In this document: positions 1-9,546 of the stretch, one piece after another | Numbering within the stretch: position 1 is the first letter of the stretch | Layout: each line of letters begins with the position of its first letter | The notes under the pieces: generated by a model | Told to the model about the DNA's origin: nothing | Database searches by the model: none | What the model saw: only the letters and a program-made list of their open reading frames with translations | Translations under genes and position numbers: made by a program | Assembly (NCBI GenBank): GCA_021835265.1 | Contig: JAKBQK010000445.1 | Span: 1-9,546, forward strand | Direction of reading: 5' to 3' | Source: Thermoplasmata archaeon | Lineage (GTDB): Archaea > Thermoplasmatota > Thermoplasmata > Thermoplasmatales > Thermoplasmataceae | Length of the DNA: 9,546 nt

Positions 1-214
1 CATTGAACCCTTCCTTAGCCAATGGGATGGCAAATCTGCCTACTCCAGCCCCTATGTCGATCACCGTACCATCAGTTTCAAGGTGAGTGATTATCTCACC
101 ATATAACGGTGTCGTCCTCGGGTCTGTTTCACTGGCTGACTTGTTTAAATTATCAGCCATTGTCTTCATAAAGGGTGAGGATAATAATGTGTTAGTCCAG
201 TCTTTTTCAATCAT
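1..214 (-). CDS. Class I SAM-dependent methyltransferase, N-terminal fragment (runs off the left edge)
   Basis: Only the first 71 codons are in the window; the gene continues beyond position 1. The start ATG (214-212) overlaps the TGA of the DUF302 gene in the arrangement ATGA, which suggests translational coupling and fixes the start. The readable part has an N-terminal region of about 45 residues and then a strand-glycine loop, VIDIGAGVGRFAIPLA at residues 51-66. This is motif I of Rossmann-fold class I methyltransferases, where the acidic residue and GxGxG-like loop bind S-adenosylmethionine. The substrate cannot be told from this fragment: small-molecule, arsenic-type and protein methyltransferases all share the motif. 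It is the third gene of an operon with the SHOCT and DUF302 genes. The methyltransferase fold is well supported; any narrower function is unknown. Confidence 0.85.
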   Translation of the reverse strand, partial: MIEKDWTNTLLSSPFMKTMADNLNKSASETDPRTTPLYGEIITHLETDGTVIDIGAGVGRFAIPLAKEGFN

Positions 215-612
215 GGTCTTAACCCAGATAATTCTTCCACGATTGCCTTAAGCTTCGTTTCGACTTCACCTAAAAAACTTTCCATGTCCTCAGATTTCTC
301 TCGATGAAGAGATTCAAACATCTCTCTGGGCATCTGGACGGATACTTCTGTGTGATCCTCAATCCCCTTCACTATAAGGTGGCATGGAACAATTGTTTCA
401 ACTCCTGAATCAAAAGAAAGTGCCTTGTTAGCATAACCGGCATTGCATATATCGTAAGTACGCAGATTGGCATAGTCAAATCCCTTGGATTTCAGAATGT
501 CACTCGTTCTTATCTCTGCCAGAACCGCAAAACCATTCTTCTGGACAACTTCAGGAACTCTCGCGCATAAATTCTCAAATGAAAGTTTGGATTTTTTTCT
601 ATATTCTGACAT
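211..612 (-). CDS. DUF302-family protein
   Basis: This 133-residue protein resembles the DUF302 family, small alpha/beta proteins of unknown biochemical role found in many archaea and bacteria. The family pattern is visible: an N-terminal helix with GFAVLAEI (residues 27-34), then YDICNAGYA (53-61) with Cys56, then the VPCHLIV strand (75-81) with Cys77, and an amphipathic C-terminal helix from about 96 to 128. There is no signal peptide or membrane segment, so it should be cytoplasmic. The start ATG directly follows the TAA of the SHOCT gene (TAAATG), with a weak purine-rich GGATGA stretch ahead of it. Its stop overlaps the methyltransferase start by 4 nt. The two family-type cysteines and the Cys/Met-rich neighbour could point to metal or redox handling, but that is inference. 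Family assignment is by motif recognition only. Confidence 0.8.
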   Translation of the reverse strand: MSEYRKKSKLSFENLCARVPEVVQKNGFAVLAEIRTSDILKSKGFDYANLRTYDICNAGYANKALSFDSGVETIVPCHLIVKGIEDHTEVSVQMPREMFESLHREKSEDMESFLGEVETKLKAIVEELSGLRP

Positions 613-807
613 TTAATCATCCTTAATAATGTCTTCACGCATCTTTATATATTCTTCCCTGCCTAATTCCCCTTTGGCATAACGTTCATTTAAAATTGCA
701 AGAGCATTTGAACTGCCACTGCTCACTACTTTCTTTCCATCGGATTCTGCCTGCATGTTGTCCATGCCCATATTTTTTACTGAATTATTCATACATCCGC
801 AAGACAT
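613..807 (-). CDS. Small SHOCT-domain protein with Cys/Met-rich N-terminus
   Basis: This 64-residue protein has two parts. The N-terminal 20 residues (MSCGCMNNSVKNMGMDNMQ) hold a Cys-Gly-Cys pair and five methionines including the start, a composition that can bind soft metals such as copper(I). A Ser/Gly linker follows. Residues 34-61, including ILNERYAKGELGREEY, match the SHOCT (short C-terminal) domain, an oligomerisation or regulatory helical pair usually found at the end of other proteins. It is the first gene of the operon with DUF302 and the methyltransferase; its TAA abuts the DUF302 ATG. No Shine-Dalgarno sequence precedes its ATG. Upstream AT-rich sequence (about 818-866) holds only weak TATA-like matches. 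A role as a small metal-responsive or metal-carrying protein is inference; the domain call is good. Confidence 0.75.
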   Translation of the reverse strand: MSCGCMNNSVKNMGMDNMQAESDGKKVVSSGSSNALAILNERYAKGELGREEYIKMREDIIKDD

Positions 808-985: not shown

Positions 986-1010
986 GAGAACCCCTCTTAT
1001 CCCTGTAATT

Positions 1011-1038
1011 CCGCACTGAGCGGAACGAGATTGTGCGG
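1011..1038. repeat. 6-bp stem CCGCAC/GTGCGG
   Basis: CCGCAC at 1011-1016 pairs with GTGCGG at 1033-1038. The loop contains a smaller CGGAACG motif, a 2-bp stem around a GAA triloop. Confidence 0.45.
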
Positions 1039-1114
1039 TCAAAAATTCCCCTCCCCTTATCCCCCTCAAATTGCACTCCGCAGGAGAGAATAATGTGCCC
1101 GAAGCGAGCCGGAA

Positions 1115-1131
1115 GTCTTGCGCAGCAAGAC
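1115..1131 (+). repeat. Perfect hairpin with GCA triloop
   Basis: GTCTTGC (1115-1121), loop GCA, GCAAGAC (1125-1131): a 7-bp perfect stem closed by a C-G pair over a GNA-type triloop when read on the plus strand. No T-run follows, so it is not an obvious terminator. Confidence 0.7.
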
Positions 1132-1154
1132 CGAGTGGTGTAAGCGTTAGCGGT

Positions 1155-1234
1155 GGGTGGTGTGGAACACCAAGCGAAGCGAAGGTGTGTAGCACCACAC
1201 ATACACCACGAGCGGCGAGCACAGGACACCACCC
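1155..1234. repeat. Nested inverted repeats: 9-bp outer arms around a GGA-triloop hairpin
   Basis: GGGTGGTGT (1155-1163) is perfectly complementary to ACACCACCC (1226-1234). Inside it, TGGTGT-GGA-ACACCA (1158-1172) makes an alternative 6-bp hairpin using the same left arm. Extra copies of GTGGTGT (1135-1141) and ACACCAC (1203-1209) allow further pairings, so several mutually exclusive folds are possible. Confidence 0.65.
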
Positions 1235-1345
1235 TGAATGAGCATGGCGAATGAAGGGCTCTTCGAAGAAGAGTGCGAGATGGAAATCAAAAGAGGGGTT
1301 AGGGGTGAATTTTGATTGAAGGCGAAGCATGGGGTCCTGTGCTCG
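1216..1345. repeat. 12-bp long-range inverted repeat
   Basis: CGAGCACAGGAC at 1216-1227 is perfectly complementary to GTCCTGTGCTCG at 1334-1345. The arms enclose the GAA-triloop hairpin and one G-rich repeat, so they could form the basal stem of a larger multibranched structure. Confidence 0.65.
1259..1273 (+). repeat. Perfect hairpin with GAA triloop
   Basis: CTCTTC (1259-1264), loop GAA, GAAGAG (1268-1273): 6 bp, extendable by one G-T wobble. As with the other two central hairpins, the loop is GNA only when read on the plus strand. Confidence 0.65.
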
Positions 1346-1420
1346 GTGTGCAGGCGAGCGAAGGGCACATAGTAATTGGCGAAGGCTCAAAGAGGGGTGG
1401 CTGAAAGTCGGGGTGAATTT
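1290..1420. repeat. Paired direct repeat AAAGAGGGGT...GGGGTGAATTT
   Basis: AAAGAGGGGT occurs at 1290-1299 and 1389-1398, and GGGGTGAATTT at 1302-1312 and 1410-1420, so a composite G-rich unit is present twice with an offset of about 100 bp. The second copy has a longer spacer. The 9-mer ACCCCTCTT at 990-998 is the perfect reverse complement of part of the first element, and 1044-1068 resembles a complete inverted copy. Confidence 0.6.
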
Positions 1421-1440
1421 GAGACTGAGCGATAAGTTTC

Positions 1441-1449: not shown

Positions 1450-4425
1450 TTATAAAACTGAAAAAATCTGACTAACCTTATCAATCCAGTACTTTCTGTA
1501 ACCCTCACCCACCACACTCAAATTGTCTGTCTTCATGAACAGGTAAACTTTTATAGAAAAATCACCGAATGTAAACACCTTCTGAGAACCATTATCTTCA
1601 AACAGTTTACTGAAATAATCTGCTTTTTGTTGATAATCTGTATATTTAGTGCTTTTAGGGTCTACAAACACTATTCTATATTCACTTCCTTTTTTGAGCC
1701 AGAATATGAAGTCTGGAGAGTAGTCTCTCATCTTGTTCTTGTATGCGTCGTAGTACGGAACACCGATTCTGTCCAAACTCTCATCGATCTTAGAGAAAAT
1801 CCACCAGTCTATTTTGAGATCCTTTGCTTCATCACTGGAGATGAATGTGTCTAGATCATACACAAATTCCTTCTCACTATTAACCTTTATTATGTGGTTT
1901 ATGAAATCAGCCTTATCAGAGGCTGACAAGATTATTGGTAAGTAGTAATGATGTGCCAGATTGATTAACTCTATTTTGCTTTCATCGTAGTCAAACAATA
2001 ATCTCTTCTTGGTTTTTGTTAACTTTTCTATCTGAGAAGTATATTCATTTATGTCTATTTCTTTAGATTCAAACTTCCTTTTTAGATCTTTCTTTATTAT
2101 TTCTGGATTTTTAAAGCTTCTTACCTCTTCTAATTTTTCTGTCAACTCTTTCTTCTTCTCGTCAGAGACCATTTCCACACCGATTTCTTTAAAATGAATG
2201 ATCTCATCTTCAAGCTCCTTAAATTTGTCCATTTCCCTCATGGAGGTATTAAGATGGTCTATGAGGTTCGATAATTGTTTATGGGCATTGTTCAAATCAT
2301 TATTTACAAAATTGGCCTCATCTAGATAATTATGTAATCGACCTAAAGTGGCAGGCGACGCTCTATCAGAATAGAGTGCATAGATCACTCTATCATCTTC
2401 GATCCAGTTAACATAATTCTCCAAAAGCTTGAAATTGCCTCGGAATTTTGGCAGCTCCTTTAACCGAACTTCTTTCTTTTCAACGTAGACTGGTAAAAGA
2501 AGTGTTGGATTGAAATCAAAGTTACTCTTCCTGACATCTATAAGTTCACCAGCCTTTTCTCGCTCAAATTTTATACTTTCCATTATTTCTCTTAAGTTTT
2601 GTTCGTTCGTTCCAAAAACGAACAACGTTTCCATGAGCGATATTGAGCCCACTCTCTTCTTTTCCTGTACAAGAGAGAATATTTGCTTTGCTTCGACATC
2701 TCCATTATTTGATAAGGTTTCAAGTCTTTGGCGTTTATCCTTAAGCGGCTCTATCCTTACTCCTCTGCCTAAGGATTGGAGAACATATTTTTTTGCATCT
2801 CCACTTCCTATATTTACAAAAACCATTACGTTTGGTCTGTTGGAGTCCCAGCCTTCGTAAAAAGCCCTGGAACCCATAAGTATGTTAATAGAACTGCCAT
2901 TACTATTAAGACTACCAAAAAAGCTGTCTTCCATGGGATTTTCACTCACCTCGTAGTCTGACAGGGTGTCCTTCAGCCATTTTGTTATATCACCTATCTT
3001 TATTGAGGCAAAATACCTATCTGATGTCTTAAGTTTGAATGCAAGTTCTTCCTTGTTCATCTGTGTCTTAACGACCTCTATTTTTCCAGTGCTGTCAGCA
3101 TTGTATACGAATTTTAAAACATCATCAAAGGTTAGATTTGAAAAATCAGTGTTCCCCAATGCAAGTTTTCTATTGCCGAACACATAATTTGGCTGATTTT
3201 TGAATTCATCTGCTATAGAACTCTTAACCTCCTCAAATAAACTAGTGTCGATCTTGTTAAGTGCTATTTCTCCCAATGTTTCAAAGAATATTTGAAGATC
3301 TGAATTCTCTATACTTGTGGTATTTCCGTAAAGTACCAGCAGTGGGTTATGATAAATATTATCAGAAGTGCGGGATAATTCTTGGTAAGCTTTCTTAACC
3401 ATTGCTAGAGTGATCAGAGTCTTCAGCACAACAATTTTTCTTTCCTCAAAATCTGTGTTATCATTTCCTCTTTCAAAGGCCTCCATGCTCTGTTGCGAAA
3501 CGTAAACATTCTTCCCATATCCTCTCTCTGTAAAAGCCTCAAGATTCAGGTTAAATACTGTTGTTATCAAATCCCATGCATCAGTAAAAGTAGCAGAGAA
3601 ATTGAATAGAAATCCGTTGCGGGAGAGAATTGAGTAGAAAATCTGTCTTTTGGAGTCTTCCTTATTGCCTTTATGCGCTTCATCCAGGATAATGTACCAT
3701 TTACCATTGTTCTCTATATCCTCAAATGAGAGGAGTTTTTCACTGGAGGTATCAGATATTAAATCGGAGCGGTAGATAAATACGTTTACGTCGTCCTTGC
3801 TAAATAGTAAGTTATGCTTGACATTGTCGTATTCCTTTAAATCCCAATACCTTATCTTTAATGGTGAAAATGAATTGAACTCATCGATATGGGCCTTGAT
3901 TTGCTTTATTAAATCTTCTCGATATGTAAGAAATAAGATGTCTTCATCGGGGATTGCCCCTCTTTTCTTAAGTTCATATAAAATTTCTATTAATTTAACT
4001 ATAACAAGGCTTTTTCCGCTACCAGTTGCCATCCAGAATCCCATTCTATTCGTAAAGTTGAAAAACGGTATTCTTTCATCTTCCGATTCATAGAACCTAT
4101 TCACAATTTTGAAAATAGTGCTATTCTTAGCGGAGATTCCCAACGCATCGGCCTGCTTTAGGTATGTTTTGATTGAGTTAAAGAGTGACTTTTTGCCGTC
4201 TAAGACGCTCTTGTCGTAGTCGGGCTCCTGATAGTGTAGCAGATTAACATAATAATGGTATAGGAACTTTAATCCTGACTTCAAAGCTTCCTTTTGATAA
4301 TCATACAGAAATTTCTTATCAGAAAACCTTTCAAATTTGAAATCCCACGAATCTGGTAGAGCCTCAAATGTAATATCTGCTATGAGTCGTTGATAAACTG
4401 GTCGTATTTTTTCATTATTGGCCAT
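1450..4425 (-). CDS. res: Type III-like restriction enzyme Res subunit (SF2 helicase-nuclease)
   Basis: This 991-residue protein has the layout of type III Res subunits, which use ATP to move along DNA and cut it when bound to Mod at unmodified sites. An SF2 helicase core is visible: FLYDYQKEAL (39-48, Q-motif region), Walker A ATGSGKS (133-139), DEAH (248-251), motif III SAT (277-279), SRAFYEGWDS (519-528, motif V region) and QSLGRGVR (550-557, motif VI, arginine finger). Residues about 700-810 are charged and probably coiled coil. The C-terminal nuclease shows SPDF (903-906) followed by FVDPKS (920-925), a PD-(D/E)xK site with aspartate in the middle position. Length is typical of the family (about 900-1000). 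The ATG lies 1 nt after the mod stop with GGTGG just upstream, so it is the last gene of the cdc6-like/mod/res operon. It appears intact. A coupled type ISP or other translocase is less likely because methylase and helicase are separate genes. Confidence 0.92.
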   Translation of the reverse strand: MANNEKIRPVYQRLIADITFEALPDSWDFKFERFSDKKFLYDYQKEALKSGLKFLYHYYVNLLHYQEPDYDKSVLDGKKSLFNSIKTYLKQADALGISAKNSTIFKIVNRFYESEDERIPFFNFTNRMGFWMATGSGKSLVIVKLIEILYELKKRGAIPDEDILFLTYREDLIKQIKAHIDEFNSFSPLKIRYWDLKEYDNVKHNLLFSKDDVNVFIYRSDLISDTSSEKLLSFEDIENNGKWYIILDEAHKGNKEDSKRQIFYSILSRNGFLFNFSATFTDAWDLITTVFNLNLEAFTERGYGKNVYVSQQSMEAFERGNDNTDFEERKIVVLKTLITLAMVKKAYQELSRTSDNIYHNPLLVLYGNTTSIENSDLQIFFETLGEIALNKIDTSLFEEVKSSIADEFKNQPNYVFGNRKLALGNTDFSNLTFDDVLKFVYNADSTGKIEVVKTQMNKEELAFKLKTSDRYFASIKIGDITKWLKDTLSDYEVSENPMEDSFFGSLNSNGSSINILMGSRAFYEGWDSNRPNVMVFVNIGSGDAKKYVLQSLGRGVRIEPLKDKRQRLETLSNNGDVEAKQIFSLVQEKKRVGSISLMETLFVFGTNEQNLREIMESIKFEREKAGELIDVRKSNFDFNPTLLLPVYVEKKEVRLKELPKFRGNFKLLENYVNWIEDDRVIYALYSDRASPATLGRLHNYLDEANFVNNDLNNAHKQLSNLIDHLNTSMREMDKFKELEDEIIHFKEIGVEMVSDEKKKELTEKLEEVRSFKNPEIIKKDLKRKFESKEIDINEYTSQIEKLTKTKKRLLFDYDESKIELINLAHHYYLPIILSASDKADFINHIIKVNSEKEFVYDLDTFISSDEAKDLKIDWWIFSKIDESLDRIGVPYYDAYKNKMRDYSPDFIFWLKKGSEYRIVFVDPKSTKYTDYQQKADYFSKLFEDNGSQKVFTFGDFSIKVYLFMKTDNLSVVGEGYRKYWIDKVSQIFSVL

Positions 4426-4426
4426 T

Positions 4427-6970
4427 CTACCACCAAATCAGGGGCTTTATTGTTTGGAAATCTATTTCTGAGAAGTTTACTTTTTCATCATCCTCAAAGA
4501 CAACCGCATCTTTTTCTATTCTCTTGATGAACTTTCCTTTAATATTCGACAAAGTCTCGGCGAGGTCAATATTAGGGTAAATCTCATCATACTTTATCTT
4601 TATTTTATTATTTTTATAATCTACTTCCATTCTGTCAATCATTTTCTTATCTTTTAGGAAAACATATTGATTGTAGACATCATCATCACTATTCAAATTA
4701 AGAAAGGGCTCAGAATCACTGTAATGGGTGTTTTTTAGTGTCTGTTGATAATGTTCCACCTCATAGTACTTGAAGAAGCCCCCCCCATCCCAATTTACAT
4801 CTTTGCTTAGATGTGGTCGCCTAACAACAGGGCTATGGATAGCTCGGAACTCTTTATCTCCACGCAATACGATTTTCATTCTTCCGAGTGCCCCAATTTT
4901 TCTCATGATAACGGTCATTTCATTCTTTGTTTCAGAAATTACTTTTATGACAGATGGATTATTTTGTTCTATCAACTCTTCATTGTTTTCCGTGTCCTCT
5001 TCAGCGTTTGTTTTACTTATTTTTACCACGTCTAAGTAGGTTTCGTTGAAGTAGTCTCCCATTTCAATTCCTATCCACTTTCTTGAAAGCTTCTGAGCTA
5101 CGCTGGTAGTAGTACCACTCCCAAGAAAGCAATCTAACACTAAATTTTGTGGGTTTGATGAGGTTTGAATAATCCGTCTAAGCAAATTCTCCGGTTTCTG
5201 GTTACTAGCAAACGATAAACTCTCTGTGATCCTGGGCTCGCTATACTGGAAAGAATAGATGTCGTTCCAGACGGTACCTTTGGCTTTAACTTTATACTTA
5301 ACACTCTCACGAACAAAACTTCCTTTGATCCATTTTTCTATGTAAAGTGACTTTTTATTATCGCCAAGGACATCCAGCCAACCTATGTTGGCATCTTCCC
5401 GATTTAGCAGTTCATATGCTTTATGAAAGACAGGGGATGGTCCTTTTACATAATAGTGTATAAAGTCAGCTTGCCGGATCCAGTTCAATGCCTGAGACTT
5501 AAATCCAGAAATATTTTCACCAGTATTCCATGTTATCTTCGCTCTGAAGTTATCAACTCCGAAAGTATTGTCCAATAAGATTCTCGCATAATGCTCTGAT
5601 ATGTGGTCAAGGTGTAGATATAGATTGCCTTGTGGATTGAGGAAAGGATATAAAATGTCAAGTCTATTTTTGATCATTGTCAGCCAAGAAGATACTTGAT
5701 AGTTATCGAGGAAGATAAAATCGTTACCTGTATTAAATGGGGGGTCCAAATAAATCAATTCAACTCTTTCCTTCCATTTGGGAAATATTGTCCTAAGAAC
5801 CTGATAATTTTCGCCATGTATTAAGTACCCATCAAGCTCCGCGTCTAAATTAGAAAATAACTGTATTATATTTAGCTCCATGTCTTTAAAATATTTGGTA
5901 TCTATAGGAAGGGTTTCGTACTTGCTGTTTAGACTGATTGAAGAACCTTCCTCAACTATAATCGAATACTTTTTAAAATTATCCTCGACTATTCCTAAAT
6001 CTACCCATTCTTTAACCTGTTCAGAAAAATTAGCATGATCTATTATTTCACGAAGGAGTTGACCACCACCTTCCTTCTGCGCAATTCGGTCCATGGTTAC
6101 GACATAGTTCGAGTTTAGAATGAATTTAGGTTTATTCCATATTTTTACCAGTTCATCCTCAAATTGAGCAACAAAATCAATAACTTTGTAAGCAATATTT
6201 TTTAGGATTTTTAACTGTTTAAGTCTCTTTTCCGAATAATCGCTCTCATCATCAAAAATGTAATTTTTTAACCACAAATCGAATTGCTCTCTCAAGAATG
6301 CCTTTGCATCTTTATTGATAAAGTAATCCACCTCTGTCTGTTTCTTAAATGTCTTGAATAATTCATCTAGGCGTTCTTCTGTTATATTTATGTGTTTTAC
6401 ATGCAACTCTTCTAAAATCTCAGATATCTTTGTTTCTTTTCCATGTTCTGAATATTGCGGTTTGAACGTTATGGCTTTATCGTTTATGCTCTCAAGCTCA
6501 AAGATTAGTACCCTTTTCTCGTTAGATCTCTTTCCCTCTATCTGAGTAGCATCAAATTTGATTATATATTCTGAACCTTCGATTTCGCAACTAATTGATA
6601 AAGTCTTGTATAGATTATCAGTTTTAACATAATAAAGCATGTTGGTCTTCCAAAAAAGGATCACATCCTGATTGTTGGTATATATTTTTTCATAGACCTT
6701 TGATCTTAAAGGCGTATAACTGAAATATATACTCCCTGATTCTGAAAAATAGGTTCTGAAGAATGTATGGAGCCTAGTGAACAACTCTTCTTTGAATTCT
6801 GGGAATTCTGCTGTTTCATTTTCAATATCGGATTTCAACGATTTGAGAATCTTTTCAAGGTATGTCGACTTAATTTTCATTAGATTTACAAAGCCAGAAT
6901 TTCCTTCCACTTTAGCACCGATAAAAATATTCTTTAAATCTTGGTAAAATTCTTCTTCATTTCTGACCAT
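4427..6970 (-). CDS. mod: Type III-like Mod DNA methyltransferase with long N-terminal extension
   Basis: This 847-residue protein should methylate DNA within the recognition sequence (adenine N6 by family precedent) and supply specificity to Res. The order of motifs is that of beta-class amino-methyltransferases: motif IV DPPFN (409-413), a variable target-recognition stretch of about 475-585, motif X-like NQKPENLL (590-597), then motif I DCFLGSGTT (613-621) followed by WIGIEMGDYF. Near the C-terminus WDGGGFFKYYEVE (727-739) resembles a conserved segment of Mod-type enzymes. The first 370 or so residues have no motif that I recognise; classical type III Mod proteins are about 600-650 residues, so this extension is unusual. 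A G8 tract encodes the GGG of the C-terminal motif. The ATG lies 1 nt after the stop of the ATPase gene, with GAGG at good SD distance. Target sequence cannot be predicted. Confidence 0.92.
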   Translation of the reverse strand: MVRNEEEFYQDLKNIFIGAKVEGNSGFVNLMKIKSTYLEKILKSLKSDIENETAEFPEFKEELFTRLHTFFRTYFSESGSIYFSYTPLRSKVYEKIYTNNQDVILFWKTNMLYYVKTDNLYKTLSISCEIEGSEYIIKFDATQIEGKRSNEKRVLIFELESINDKAITFKPQYSEHGKETKISEILEELHVKHINITEERLDELFKTFKKQTEVDYFINKDAKAFLREQFDLWLKNYIFDDESDYSEKRLKQLKILKNIAYKVIDFVAQFEDELVKIWNKPKFILNSNYVVTMDRIAQKEGGGQLLREIIDHANFSEQVKEWVDLGIVEDNFKKYSIIVEEGSSISLNSKYETLPIDTKYFKDMELNIIQLFSNLDAELDGYLIHGENYQVLRTIFPKWKERVELIYLDPPFNTGNDFIFLDNYQVSSWLTMIKNRLDILYPFLNPQGNLYLHLDHISEHYARILLDNTFGVDNFRAKITWNTGENISGFKSQALNWIRQADFIHYYVKGPSPVFHKAYELLNREDANIGWLDVLGDNKKSLYIEKWIKGSFVRESVKYKVKAKGTVWNDIYSFQYSEPRITESLSFASNQKPENLLRRIIQTSSNPQNLVLDCFLGSGTTTSVAQKLSRKWIGIEMGDYFNETYLDVVKISKTNAEEDTENNEELIEQNNPSVIKVISETKNEMTVIMRKIGALGRMKIVLRGDKEFRAIHSPVVRRPHLSKDVNWDGGGFFKYYEVEHYQQTLKNTHYSDSEPFLNLNSDDDVYNQYVFLKDKKMIDRMEVDYKNNKIKIKYDEIYPNIDLAETLSNIKGKFIKRIEKDAVVFEDDEKVNFSEIDFQTIKPLIWW
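4779..4786 (-). repeat. G8 homopolymer inside mod (C8 on the plus strand)
   Basis: Eight consecutive G residues on the coding strand encode Gly729-Gly731 of Mod (GAT GGG GGG GGC TTC). It is the longest G/C homopolymer I see in the window. Slippage would shift the frame about 117 codons before the end, leaving the catalytic motifs but losing the C-terminus. Confidence 0.9.
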
Positions 6971-6971
6971 T

Positions 6972-8072
6972 TTATAGCCTCTTTTTCAGCTCTCCATATA
7001 CAATAGACTCATCCGATAATAATATTTGTGACTCCATGGTGTAATATCTGCCTATCTTCTTCTTGATCAGTGTGATAAGGCCAAGGTTCTGCAGATAGTT
7101 GACGCTCTGGAAGAACGTTGACTTGCTCACTCCCCTGAGCAATAAATGACTGGATGCTGAAACTTCGGAATACGCCCTGTTCGTATCCTGATTCTTGACC
7201 AGTGCTGCCAGTATCAGCAGGTCCCGGTCTCCAAGATTCTTCAATGTTTCGCCTTCCACCTCCACGTAAGCCTGCTTCAGTGCTGTCTTGATCGAGTCCT
7301 CGTCCCATTTATTGCTTCTTCCAAGAATTTCCAGGGCCTTTATTCCGATCCTTGCGTCACTCCTGTAGTCCCTAACAAGCAGTGCAGACAATAAACCCAG
7401 AGACTCTTTGTCATATTCATTCAGCCCTTCCTTTGCCCTCATCCTCAATATCTCACGAATCTCCTCCGTGCTGTATTCATGGAATACGATATGATCAGGC
7501 TGCAGTGAGCTCTTAACGCTCTCATCATTCATGTTCTTGTACCAGTAGACCTTCTGCGTCAGCAGGATGAGGTTTGCCTTTGTGTGCCTCGTTATGTGGT
7601 AAAGGATGTCGTAATCCTGCAGAAAGTCAACCTCGTCCAGGACCACGAGAGAGCTGCTGGAAAGCATCTCATCGCATCTGTTCTTCACCTCCTCCACCTC
7701 GTGTCCCTTGCCGAACAGGCGGGCTATGTTTCGATAGATTTTCGTAGAAGTCGGATTCTCCCTCACGTTAACATAGAAGTATGGGACGGATTTCGTGTCT
7801 CTGAGGGCCTTTGCCATGATAAGGGCGCTGAGCGTCTTCCCCGATCCCTTGGATCCGTAGATGATGATGTGCCTTGGAAGACCAAGATTCACGTAATCAG
7901 CCAGATCGTCGGTCACTCTTCCCAGCTCAGACCTTATGAGTATCTCTCCTGGCGTGTAGCTTATGTTGAAGACCTGTGCATTCTTCATGTTGCTTGTTTC
8001 CACAGCCCTTGCACTGAGCTTTGCAGCCATGAACGATTTGGGATTCTTTGTATCCATCTCCCGCACCAGCAT
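6972..8072 (-). CDS. Divergent Orc1/Cdc6-like AAA+ ATPase with winged helix
   Basis: This 366-residue protein has the architecture of archaeal Orc1/Cdc6 initiators, which bind origin DNA and load the MCM helicase. Visible are Walker A GSKGSGKT (73-80), Walker B LVVLDEVDF (142-150), a sensor-1 region LILLTQ (168-173), the sensor-2 block SDARIGIKALEIL (238-250) like the GDARxAL motif of the family, and a C-terminal winged helix about 280-350. It is divergent: Walker A is not the usual GPPGTGKT, and the proline-rich N-terminal family motif is not clear. It is the first gene of an operon with mod and res. It may be the initiator of a mobile element, a regulator, or a partner of the restriction system. 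The start is uncertain: Met1 (8072), or Met6 (8057), which fits the GTTATTAA box better. The gene looks richer in G+C than mod and res. Confidence 0.82.
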   Translation of the reverse strand: MLVREMDTKNPKSFMAAKLSARAVETSNMKNAQVFNISYTPGEILIRSELGRVTDDLADYVNLGLPRHIIIYGSKGSGKTLSALIMAKALRDTKSVPYFYVNVRENPTSTKIYRNIARLFGKGHEVEEVKNRCDEMLSSSSLVVLDEVDFLQDYDILYHITRHTKANLILLTQKVYWYKNMNDESVKSSLQPDHIVFHEYSTEEIREILRMRAKEGLNEYDKESLGLLSALLVRDYRSDARIGIKALEILGRSNKWDEDSIKTALKQAYVEVEGETLKNLGDRDLLILAALVKNQDTNRAYSEVSASSHLLLRGVSKSTFFQSVNYLQNLGLITLIKKKIGRYYTMESQILLSDESIVYGELKKRL

Positions 8073-8090
8073 TAATACTTCAATGGTAAG

Positions 8091-8098
8091 GTTATTAA
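8091..8098 (-). promoter_or_regulatory. TATA-like box for the ATPase-mod-res operon
   Basis: The minus strand reads TTAATAAC here. Normal archaeal spacing places the start site near 8068-8069, giving a short leader to Met6 of the ATPase or a nearly leaderless transcript. The same 8-mer (plus strand GTTATTAA) occurs in front of the recombinase gene. The AT tract at 8257-8275 is an alternative promoter with a leader of about 160 nt. Confidence 0.35.
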
Positions 8099-8103
8099 CG
8101 CTA

Positions 8104-8118
8104 TCGAACGAGTCGAAC
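8104..8118. repeat. Short direct repeat TCGAAC-GAG-TCGAAC
   Basis: Two perfect TCGAAC hexamers (8104-8109 and 8113-8118) lie 9 bp apart in phase, just upstream of the proposed TATA-like box. Their position would suit a transcription factor or initiator binding site. Chance occurrence is possible. Confidence 0.3.
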
Positions 8119-8136
8119 AGATGTGTGTGGGAAAAT

Positions 8137-8152
8137 GGTGATTTTAGTCACC
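8137..8152. promoter_or_regulatory. 16-bp dyad GGTGA-N6-TCACC
   Basis: GGTGA (8137-8141) and TCACC (8148-8152) form a perfect 5-bp dyad with a 6-bp spacer, 65-80 bp upstream of the ATPase start. It could be an operator for a dimeric regulator or a binding site for the ATPase's own winged helix. Confidence 0.35.
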
Positions 8153-8303
8153 GGAATGAGTGTGTTAAAAAACGCGTAGAGCCTTGCGGTGATCGGATGT
8201 TATTCAAAAATTAAGAAAATTTCCATTTTTCTGGTATGTAATGTTCATTGTATCAGTTATATATATAATATATAAGAAAGAGCCTGACGCGTTCGGAGAC
8301 ACA

Positions 8304-8318
8304 CACAGTCATCCTGTG
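8304..8318 (-). terminator. Weak hairpin after the recombinase gene
   Basis: CACAG (8304-8308) pairs with CTGTG (8314-8318) over a 5-nt loop, 3 nt past the recombinase stop. Further along the minus strand come pyrimidine-rich CTCTTTCTT and the AT tract, which could end transcription. Archaeal termination depends mainly on T-runs, so the hairpin itself may be irrelevant. Confidence 0.25.
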
Positions 8319-8320
8319 GC

Positions 8321-8970: not shown

Positions 8971-9016
8971 GTTTAGTGGCGTTACTGAAATTACAAGTTT
9001 AGTGACAGATGTTACT
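8971..9016. other. Tandem imperfect dyads, candidate recombinase (res-like) site
   Basis: GTTTAGTG followed by GTTACT occurs twice: 8971-8978 with 8981-8986, and 8997-9004 with 9011-9016, 26 bp apart. In each unit AGTGGC or AGTGAC faces GTTACT, giving imperfect inverted half-sites with different spacers. Resolvase genes in Tn3-type systems normally have such multi-dyad sites just upstream of the gene, and this pair lies 45-90 bp upstream of the recombinase ATG. The second unit overlaps the end of the 79-residue gene. Confidence 0.4.
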
Positions 9017-9238
9017 CGCCAAGATCGAGTTGATTGTCTGGAGAATTCCGTTCAGCAAATTAAGGAAGTTCTCAATATTGTTTTCGGCCATCAAATCTAT
9101 TTTTGCCACAACACTTCGGAATTGCTCAAGGAAACTTTCAACTATTTTTCTGCATTTTTTTGATCTTAGGAACTTGACCGACTCGGAAAACGTAGAAAAA
9201 ACTGCCTTTATTGTATCGAATATTTCTTCTGGAGTCAC
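8999..9238 (-). CDS. Small helical protein of unknown function
   Basis: I do not recognise this 79-residue protein. It starts with GTG (9238-9236), 10 nt after the stop of the preceding gene, with AGGT as a modest SD at suitable distance. The sequence is almost wholly suited to amphipathic helices, for example IVESFLEQFRSVVAKIDLM and NFLNLLNGILQTINSIL, with regular leucine/isoleucine/phenylalanine spacing. A basic patch RSKKCRK lies at about residues 25-31. No membrane segment, signal peptide or known motif is evident; it could form a helical bundle or associate with the membrane-anchored protein encoded just before it. Overlapping plus-strand frames exist, but strand consistency, spacing and the SD favour this one. 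Coding status is probable, not certain. Confidence 0.55.
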   Translation of the reverse strand: MTPEEIFDTIKAVFSTFSESVKFLRSKKCRKIVESFLEQFRSVVAKIDLMAENNIENFLNLLNGILQTINSILASNICH

Positions 9239-9248
9239 TGAAAGACCT

Positions 9249-9546
9249 TTATCTTCTGCTGCCGAGTAAGGCTATCAAGGCTGCGCCTATTATTCCGACA
9301 ATAGCCAATCCAATGAGGGTATTGCCAGCATCAGGGTATCCGCACGCATCAAGTGTTGCACCAACTATTATCTCAAGTATGTCCCTATCGGGATTAGCGA
9401 TTCCTTGAATCACAGACAAGATGCTCTGTTTTTCTTGGCCCTTTGCATAAGTTCTAAGATAGCTACATATCTCTTGTTTGAAGGTTTCTCCGTCATTTAG
9501 GAGATCTGATTTTATGCCTGGTCTACCAGCAGCTCTAACATAGGTC
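9249..9546 (-). CDS. C-terminal part of an unknown protein with a membrane tail (runs off the right edge)
   Basis: An open frame enters from the right edge and stays open for 98 codons to a TAA at 9251-9249; its start lies outside the window. I do not recognise it. The visible part begins with a charged, probably helical soluble region containing two cysteines. It ends with about 20 hydrophobic residues (LIGLAIVGIIGAALIALLG) and a short basic tail SRR, as in C-terminally membrane-anchored proteins. It directly precedes the 79-residue gene in the same orientation, so the two are likely co-transcribed. No catalytic motif is visible, and signal peptide status is unknowable from this fragment. 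Confidence 0.6.
   Translation of the reverse strand, partial: TYVRAAGRPGIKSDLLNDGETFKQEICSYLRTYAKGQEKQSILSVIQGIANPDRDILEIIVGATLDACGYPDAGNTLIGLAIVGIIGAALIALLGSRR

Follow-up and report, generated by a model that had tools for sequence, protein, structure and literature searches.

A probable Orc1/Cdc6-type plasmid initiator followed by exchangeable restriction-modification cargo in an integrative element of Thermoplasmatales

For the archaeal plasmid pPO1, Cdc6 has been proposed as the initiator of replication and the repeat-rich AT region upstream of it as the origin, and a restriction-modification (RM) system has also been proposed (PMC3177234). The start site of the pPO1 methyltransferase was mapped inside cdc6, and a polycistronic RNA was undetected by 5' rapid amplification of cDNA ends (RACE) (PMC3177234). 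The plasmid pTA1 of Thermoplasma acidophilum carries an Orc1/Cdc6 homologue that is 38% identical to that of pPO1, in an origin-like layout (PMC3177234). Type III RM systems are described as prevalent in Thermoplasmata in the accessible part of a survey (PMC10609329). For Cuniculiplasma, the accessible text of PMC5155288 describes defence islands with RM genes and tRNAs near the islands; the words Cdc6 and plasmid are absent from that text. Here we analyze a stretch of 9,546 nucleotides (nt) from a Thermoplasmata archaeon (contig JAKBQK010000445.1), referred to in full as the window (W), in which a gene for an Orc1/Cdc6-type ATPase is followed by the mod and res genes of a type III RM system. 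L-numbers denote the loci and G-numbers the genomes that were compared with it.

We consider it highly probable (about 0.88) that the window is an internal piece of a Thermoplasmatales integrative plasmid, that the ATPase is the initiator of this plasmid, and that the RM genes behind it are exchangeable cargo. The original prediction had also raised the initiator of a plasmid-like element, and this option is now strongly supported by an integrase, ParA, a resolvase, origin-like repeats, tRNA-Ala attachment (att) sites and the likeness to pPO1. Its more far-reaching proposal, namely that ATPase, Mod and Res form a new three-gene defence system, is probably not correct.

In the order of transcription, which is from the minus strand, the window holds two small open reading frames (ORFs), a serine recombinase, the ATPase, Mod, Res, a GC-rich region and small accessory genes. 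Beyond the gene trio described before, it thus also has a resolvase, an intergenic inverted repeat and a structured non-coding block:

8999..9545, minus strand: two small ORFs upstream of the resolvase, common to elements L059 and L060
8321..8926, minus strand: serine recombinase (resolvase/invertase), 201 amino acids (aa), Pfam Resolvase 2.4e-45
8073..8320, minus strand: predicted origin, inverted-repeat arms (8154-8177 / 8287-8310) around an AT-rich tract
6972..8072, minus strand: Orc1/Cdc6-type AAA+ winged-helix ATPase, predicted plasmid initiator, 366 aa, from fold, tree and profile
6972..7193, minus strand: 3' end of the ATPase gene with cargo breakpoints nearby; residue ~294 is the equivalent of the pPO1 methyltransferase start site
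4427..6970, minus strand: type III Mod methyltransferase, 847 aa, cargo; PADLOC MTase_III 714 bits, N6_N4_Mtase 4.4e-34
1450..4425, minus strand: type III Res, 991 aa, with helicase and PD-DxK nuclease motif, cargo; ResIII 5.9e-17, REase_III 82.7 bits
~1000..1425, minus strand: structured non-coding block c3, downstream edge of the cargo slot, from indels, fold z-score and conservation
2..807, minus strand: accessory genes, namely partial ORF 214-2 (S-adenosylmethionine-binding-like motif by eye, no Pfam match), DUF302 and SHOCT

The ATPase has the Walker A motif GSKGSGKT, in which the lysine is residue 79, the residue that the original prediction had named for mutation, and the Walker B motif LVVLDE. 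An AlphaFold2 model, built from an alignment of 37 sequences, has a mean pLDDT of 89.6. In Foldseek, ranks 1-7 for this model are archaeal Orc1/Cdc6 proteins, including 2v1u and 2qby, which were solved with DNA, and the ATPase has the AAA+ core and C-terminal winged helix of the Orc1/Cdc6 fold. The TM-scores by query are 0.56-0.68, and therefore the domains are not closely superposed on these matches. Furthermore, the profile of the ATPase family picks up 2qby_A at 3e-36, and AAA_22 is the sole Pfam model that the protein passes by a clear margin.

In a tree of 47 proteins, one branch (96/97) unites 15 rows of the family, pPO1 Cdc6 included, with 14 of the 20 relatives, while the other side holds 12 rows taken as chromosomal orc1 together with 4 relatives, and two long relatives stand between. 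The chromosomal rows were picked automatically as the longest ORF with a P-loop, so that single rows may be wrong, and L027 has a very long branch. Among the matches listed, and pseudogene fragments aside, family members have E values of 1e-92 or less and the others of at least 1e-45. Close matches (E 1e-60 or better) occur in 15 of 101 genomes around the window's nearest genome, several of them in multiple copies, and further genomes among those 101 carry broken ATPase pieces. In 389 sampled genomes of the phylum, the close matches listed all fall in the same order. The Orc1/Cdc6 fold would also be expected of an ordinary chromosomal orc1 that adjoins an RM pair by accident; the separate clade, the wide score gap, the sporadic and multi-copy occurrence and the plasmid backbone described below speak against this, and we give it practically no credence. 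The original prediction had named clustering with chromosomal initiators as a sign of accidental linkage, and the ATPase lies apart from the chromosomal orc1 sampled.

Outside Thermoplasmatota, the short contig L103 (Candidatus Methanolliviera) carries a ParA gene upstream of an ATPase that is 49% identical. No ATPase relative in viral contigs was confirmed by sequence or alignment. An identity with MADS mad8 was rejected, the match reaching 18.9 bits over residues 60-148 only, i.e. the ATP-binding part, and no other mad family stands among the rows listed for the four window proteins scanned (for Mod, 25 of 46 rows).

The neighbourhood of the ATPase was compared in 23 loci, each with a full or nearly full close ATPase gene; L079, L103 and L107 (56, 49 and 30% identical) as well as L080 and L081 (contig ends) were left out. 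The resolvase lies directly upstream of the ATPase in 22 of the 23 loci, ParA, which has a clear identity (AAA_31 4.1e-60), lies farther upstream in 20, and a 429-aa tyrosine recombinase is found upstream in 18 when longer stretches are counted. The contigs of the window, L067, L094 and L097 end before the integrase, and L075 is without integrase, ParA and resolvase. The recombinase has conserved Arg, His and Gly-His motifs, which we take to be those of tyrosine recombinases. The full order of the element is tRNA-Ala, tyrosine integrase, VirB4/HerA-like ATPase, ParA, resolvase, origin-like repeats, Cdc6, cargo and a tRNA-derived repeat. The order resolvase-Cdc6-RM falls inside the window; the HerA-like gene falls outside it and is deduced from relatives.

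All 6 copies on single-contig genomes have a tRNA-Ala gene (CGC or TGC anticodon) ahead of the recombinase, and an exact 19-nt repeat of the tRNA 3' end is present downstream in 5 of them. It is the nearest copy in 4 (G013, G010a, G010b and G025), with 17.5 to 31.9 kilobases (kb) between the repeats. In G014a a copy with one mismatch precedes the exact one, and G014b has an 18-nt match only. L062 runs from att to att within 15.3 kb; it has the same layout as L094, and the two may come from one population, and G001 and G058 match records of metagenome-assembled genomes and may mix strains. In L068, the right repeat is followed by the start of another, distinct integrase, an arrangement resembling a tandem array. 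The att sites of L062 enclose homologues of the DUF302 gene and the partial ORF 214-2 of the window, which is therefore probably wholly internal to an integrated element. The att repeats seen in these relatives point to tRNA-Ala genes as the sites into which the tyrosine integrase would insert the plasmid.

Between resolvase and ATPase, the two inverted arms (24 nt, 71% complementary, a value given with no chance control) surround a TATATA-rich tract. This intergenic stretch has conserved blocks across 16 aligned elements, and inspection by eye shows the two arms varying in step from one element group to another (GTGTGTG or GAGAGAG). In the same place, IG1 of pPO1 has an AT-rich tract between two inverted arms (231-262 / 446-477, 81%), which stand among many AT-rich chance pairs (68 found). 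This layout makes 8073-8320 the predicted replication origin of the plasmid. As the fold, the layout and pPO1 suggest, the ATPase would recognize the inverted repeats that directly precede its gene, melt the AT-rich tract and bring in the replication machinery of the host.

As to the genes behind the ATPase, the placement of ATPase, Mod and Res head to tail with 1-nt spacing twice agrees with their coordinates, and both the ATPase/Mod and the Mod/Res junction read stop-A-ATG, all three genes being on the minus strand. That the three are almost certainly co-expressed, as was claimed from this spacing, is not shown, given the methyltransferase start inside cdc6 and the RACE result for pPO1 (PMC3177234). 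Mod matches the type III profile (PDLC03638 4.9e-215, PADLOC), with DPPF at 409 preceding FLGSG at 615, and Res has DEAH at 248 and a C-terminal PD at 904 followed by DPK. We read DPPF and FLGSG as presumed N6/N4 methyltransferase motifs, DEAH as a presumed helicase motif and PD...DPK as a presumed nuclease motif.

Four of the 23 loci end less than 300 nt from the ATPase, which leaves 19 testable for cargo. An RM gene is next after the ATPase in 14 of these 19, and five kinds are found, namely: a type III system like that of the window (W, L065, L068, L073); a second type III group (L064, L069, L071, L072, L078); a type IIG-like methyltransferase with IrrE, DUF4411 and SNF2/PLD-helicase genes (L070, L074 and, decayed, L067); a small N6/N4 methyltransferase with a 315-aa ORF (L059); and an 827-aa methyltransferase (L066). 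The N6/N4 methyltransferases of three cargo kinds share one sequence cluster, so the kinds are not all unrelated. Within the type IIG-like cargo of L070, the IrrE/HTH and DUF4411 genes (12216-13852) form a pair that is possibly a toxin-antitoxin system. In L078, DndB-like and Schlafen/AlbA_2 genes (13474-15833) lie between the structured block and the right att repeat as further defence-type cargo.

The inspection of the homologues' neighbours that the original prediction called for thus found RM genes of varied kinds downstream in most cases. Since RM genes follow in 14 of 19 loci and the ATPase forms a separate clade, the linkage is not accidental and reflects a cargo slot of the plasmid. 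The slot behind the initiator, which itself looks unusual, would usually hold one RM system of variable kind, here type III, and this cargo probably aids persistence of the plasmid and protects the host.

In order to trace exchange, 12 element pairs were compared in 100-nt steps. Between the window and L073, the ATPase gene is 62-81% identical in its first 1000 nt and 89% in its last piece, and identity is then 87-99% through Mod, while Res is lower and more variable. The reverse is seen between L069 and L072, where the ATPase genes are 89-98% identical over the first 800 nt and 79-83% over the last 300 nt, and the cargo of the two is too diverged for DNA alignment, yet falls in the same protein clusters. 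In the trio of the window, L068 and L073, 117 sites of the resolvase region join L068 and L073, as against 71 and 49 for the other pairings, and codons 1-250 of the ATPase gene agree (123 vs. 42 and 53). In Mod, 375 sites join the window and L073 (vs. 69 and 88), and Res does so less strongly (371 vs. 201 and 194), while in the last 300 nt of the ATPase gene 36 sites join the window and L068 (vs. 21 and 17). A single shared three-gene history therefore does not fit this trio. The conflict seen in this one type III trio suggests that cargo is exchanged through recombination, the breakpoints of which would lie at the 3' end of the initiator gene or close to it.

Decayed copies were examined at fourteen loci that hold only a piece of the ATPase gene; the contig of L104 ends there, leaving 13 testable stubs, for which the next gene of at least 150 aa on the same strand was taken. 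These loci were found via ATPase matches, so that those with total loss of the ATPase are undercounted, and some pieces were not counted, namely second copies in L066 and L071, the contig-cut L081 and other small pieces. In 12 of the 13 testable stubs the next gene is an RM gene, within 242 nt; in L088 an unidentified ORF is next to the stub and RM pieces lie beyond. An att core lies just before the stub in L085 and L086 and an integrase piece before it in L104 and L111, which is what deletion of the backbone from a copy in the chromosome would leave. In G004, G006 and G008 (completeness 96, 79 and 87%), RM genes are followed by the structured block where no close ATPase match appears; the helicase gene in G004 is split. 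This persistence of RM genes beside ATPase stubs suggests, as far as gene content can tell, that the RM systems may not need the ATPase. On decay, the mobility and replication genes would be lost, while the RM genes would stay, usually with the end of the ATPase gene and often with the structured block.

An extra cargo type, the ThaI restriction enzyme family, is identified by Pfam directly behind the stubs of L089 (7124-7774) and L110 (10356-10991). ThaI-family genes also lie before the structured block in L152, L153 and L157 (the last a 90-nt match only), by BLAST to the genes of L089 and L110. In L112 and L097, whose bins are named Micrarchaeota, a C-terminal stub with an N6/N4 methyltransferase and a near-identical element are found, either by transfer to these small archaea or by binning error.

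These data bear on the proposal that the RM system includes the ATPase as a functional third subunit or is regulated by it, e.g. through an ATP-driven switch that coordinates the timing of restriction and replication. The tight junctions and the RM gene next in 14 of 19 loci would fit such a role, and the occurrence of several RM kinds would allow for a general regulator. However, the ATPase frame remains open in the five loci that lack RM genes, an RM gene has been retained next to an incomplete ATPase gene in 12 of 13 testable stubs, and RM genes stand without a close ATPase match in G004, G006 and G008, which are incomplete genomes. In addition, the ATPase gene of L073 (7216-8259), which adjoins a type III pair with a Mod gene 93% identical to that of the window, is interrupted by a stop codon after residue 347 of 361; the protein loses just 14 residues and may still work. 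We regard this explanation as very unlikely. The extra defence subunit and the new three-gene system are not supported, given the five kinds of RM, or none, behind the ATPase (14/19 and 5/19), the RM genes kept beside 12 of 13 stubs and present in G004, G006 and G008, and the conflict between type III cargo history and ATPase history in the trio of the window, L068 and L073.

A different role, compatible with that of plasmid initiator, is that the ATPase moonlights by binding the 3' end of its own gene or the region upstream, where it would repress or time the RM genes and so place restriction under copy-number control. The methyltransferase of pPO1 has its start site 78 codons upstream of the end of cdc6, at the equivalent of residue ~294 of the window's ATPase; this would fit such a role, as would synonymous codons 301-347, which are more conserved than those in the middle of the gene (0.548 vs. 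~0.46, permutation p 0.027). On the other hand, the 5' end of the gene is equally conserved (0.540), the 16 pairs tested are not independent, no TATA-like match is seen by eye at the equivalent site of the window, and cargo recombination can also yield 3' conservation; we find this role doubtful. Retention of a promoter as the reason for the stubs finds only partial support: among the 13 testable stubs, L087, L089 and L112 begin no earlier than residue 294, and the match of L090 is confined to ATPase residues 153-192.

Behind the cargo, the structured block (~430 nt) shares 84-95% identity with its counterparts in 17 of 18 other loci, in alignments of 308-548 columns, and 78% with that of L060; for comparison, the ATPase genes of the window and of the main other groups share 72-76% identity. 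The block is GC-rich, with repeated hairpins whose arms are built around ATTCACCCC...CCCCTC, and it folds 5.65 standard deviations below shuffles (z -5.65). IG2 of pPO1, likewise GC-rich, has the same hairpin design with arms that are different from those of the block but complementary. The hairpin arms differ together, with stems of at least 6 in 39 of 47 distinct sites (shuffled mean 16.7, maximum 25); the 47 sites represent 8 mutually related arm pairs. Covariation over the whole fold is not shown in the block alignment, where 1 of 110 pairs changed on both sides (covariation term +1.5), and Rfam at gathering scores gave no match in the window. A protein gene was ruled out by ORF lengths that vary between elements and by one-base, frame-breaking indels.

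Block matches occur in 18 of 61 genomes searched. The copies were read by eye and matches below 150 nt were dropped, giving 25 copies, of which 3 at contig edges leave 22 testable. An RM operon is nearest upstream in 17 of the 22, including some with a small or unidentified ORF at the operon end and some with split genes (L149, L153); the remaining 5 comprise 1 with RM genes and an intervening large ORF, 3 with the ATPase directly upstream, i.e. an empty slot, and 1 with neither. A tentative extension, which we hold to be possible and rather less than even, is a dedicated RM cassette made up of the 3' end of the initiator gene with an RM start site, any RM system and the ~430-nt block. It would be swapped as a unit via its two conserved edges and would remain in the chromosome after decay of the plasmid, and a single plasmid family would thus have supplied much of the order's RM repertoire. 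If so, the block would represent a new kind of recombination site, replication site or RNA.

Several observations weigh against the reading of the window as part of an integrative plasmid with an initiator and exchangeable cargo. The integrase, ParA and att sites of this copy are not seen and are known from relatives; the integrase has no Pfam match and just sub-cut-off XerA/C/D matches, and the VirB4/HerA-like gene is assigned from weak or sub-cut-off matches. Exact end overlap over 20 nt gave no circular contig in 16 contigs. The ATPase scores 100.1 bits on TIGR02928 (NCBIfam orc1/cdc6), below the cut-off of 181.3, as does pPO1 Cdc6 (127.4 bits). Behind the ATPase, 5 of the 19 testable loci have no RM genes (L060, L062, L075 with 694 nt left, L076 and L094). 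Among distant relatives, L079 (56%) has an AAA_14/DUF4143 gene next and the contig of L103 ends, while pPO1 has the RM link. Finally, several of the 12 pairs have a weaker step or no clear one, and none is seen in W-L065, L070-L074 and L078-L071.

Taken together, the lead of a defence subunit is replaced by a testable picture in which one tRNA-Ala-integrating plasmid family delivers interchangeable RM systems, and the element is one concrete carrier of type III RM in Thermoplasmata. The block and the pPO1 start site inside the initiator gene offer a way to study how defence genes might be exchanged and yet remain expressed. The origin and initiator are, in addition, a candidate genetic tool for acidophilic archaea, such tools being missing for Picrophilus (PMC3177234).

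Among known systems, the type III RM of the EcoP15I kind resembles the window in having Mod and Res with the usual motifs. Over a short stretch, the window's Mod can be aligned with EcoP15I Mod (4zcf) at 2.3e-11, and a search of PDB sequences at E 0.01 gave no match for Res. Unlike in the EcoP15I kind, Mod and Res of the window are plasmid cargo behind an initiator. The integrated mobile elements of Thaumarchaeota, as described in the accessible part of PMC6563490, are likewise integrated in archaeal chromosomes, and pTA1 is, by its description in PMC3177234, likewise a plasmid with an Orc1/Cdc6 homologue and an origin-like layout.

The literature searched, with most subscription papers and bioRxiv outside its coverage, held no description of the integrative form, the RM variety, the breakpoints, the stubs or the block, nor did the accessible parts of PMC10609329, PMC5155288, PMC12350378, PMC8371274 and PMC12988326. 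A tblastn search over 72,556 plasmid records gave 55 records, and among the best 20 of these the Cdc6 of pPO1 (Picrophilus oshimae, NC_016049; 44% identical) was the one match above 30% identity. pPO1 resembles the family in its resolvase, its Cdc6 with AT-rich repeats upstream, an overlapping N6/N4 methyltransferase, an FtsK/HerA-like ATPase and a GC-rich, hairpin-bearing intergenic region after the RM genes. It differs in being free and circular, at 7.6 kb, with no integrase or ParA match at 1e-5, and its RM system consists of a methyltransferase and an ORF that its authors annotate as a type II restriction enzyme. Thus, the core arrangement is already known from pPO1 (2011), while the integrative form, the variety of RM systems in the slot, the breakpoints, the stubs and the block are added here.

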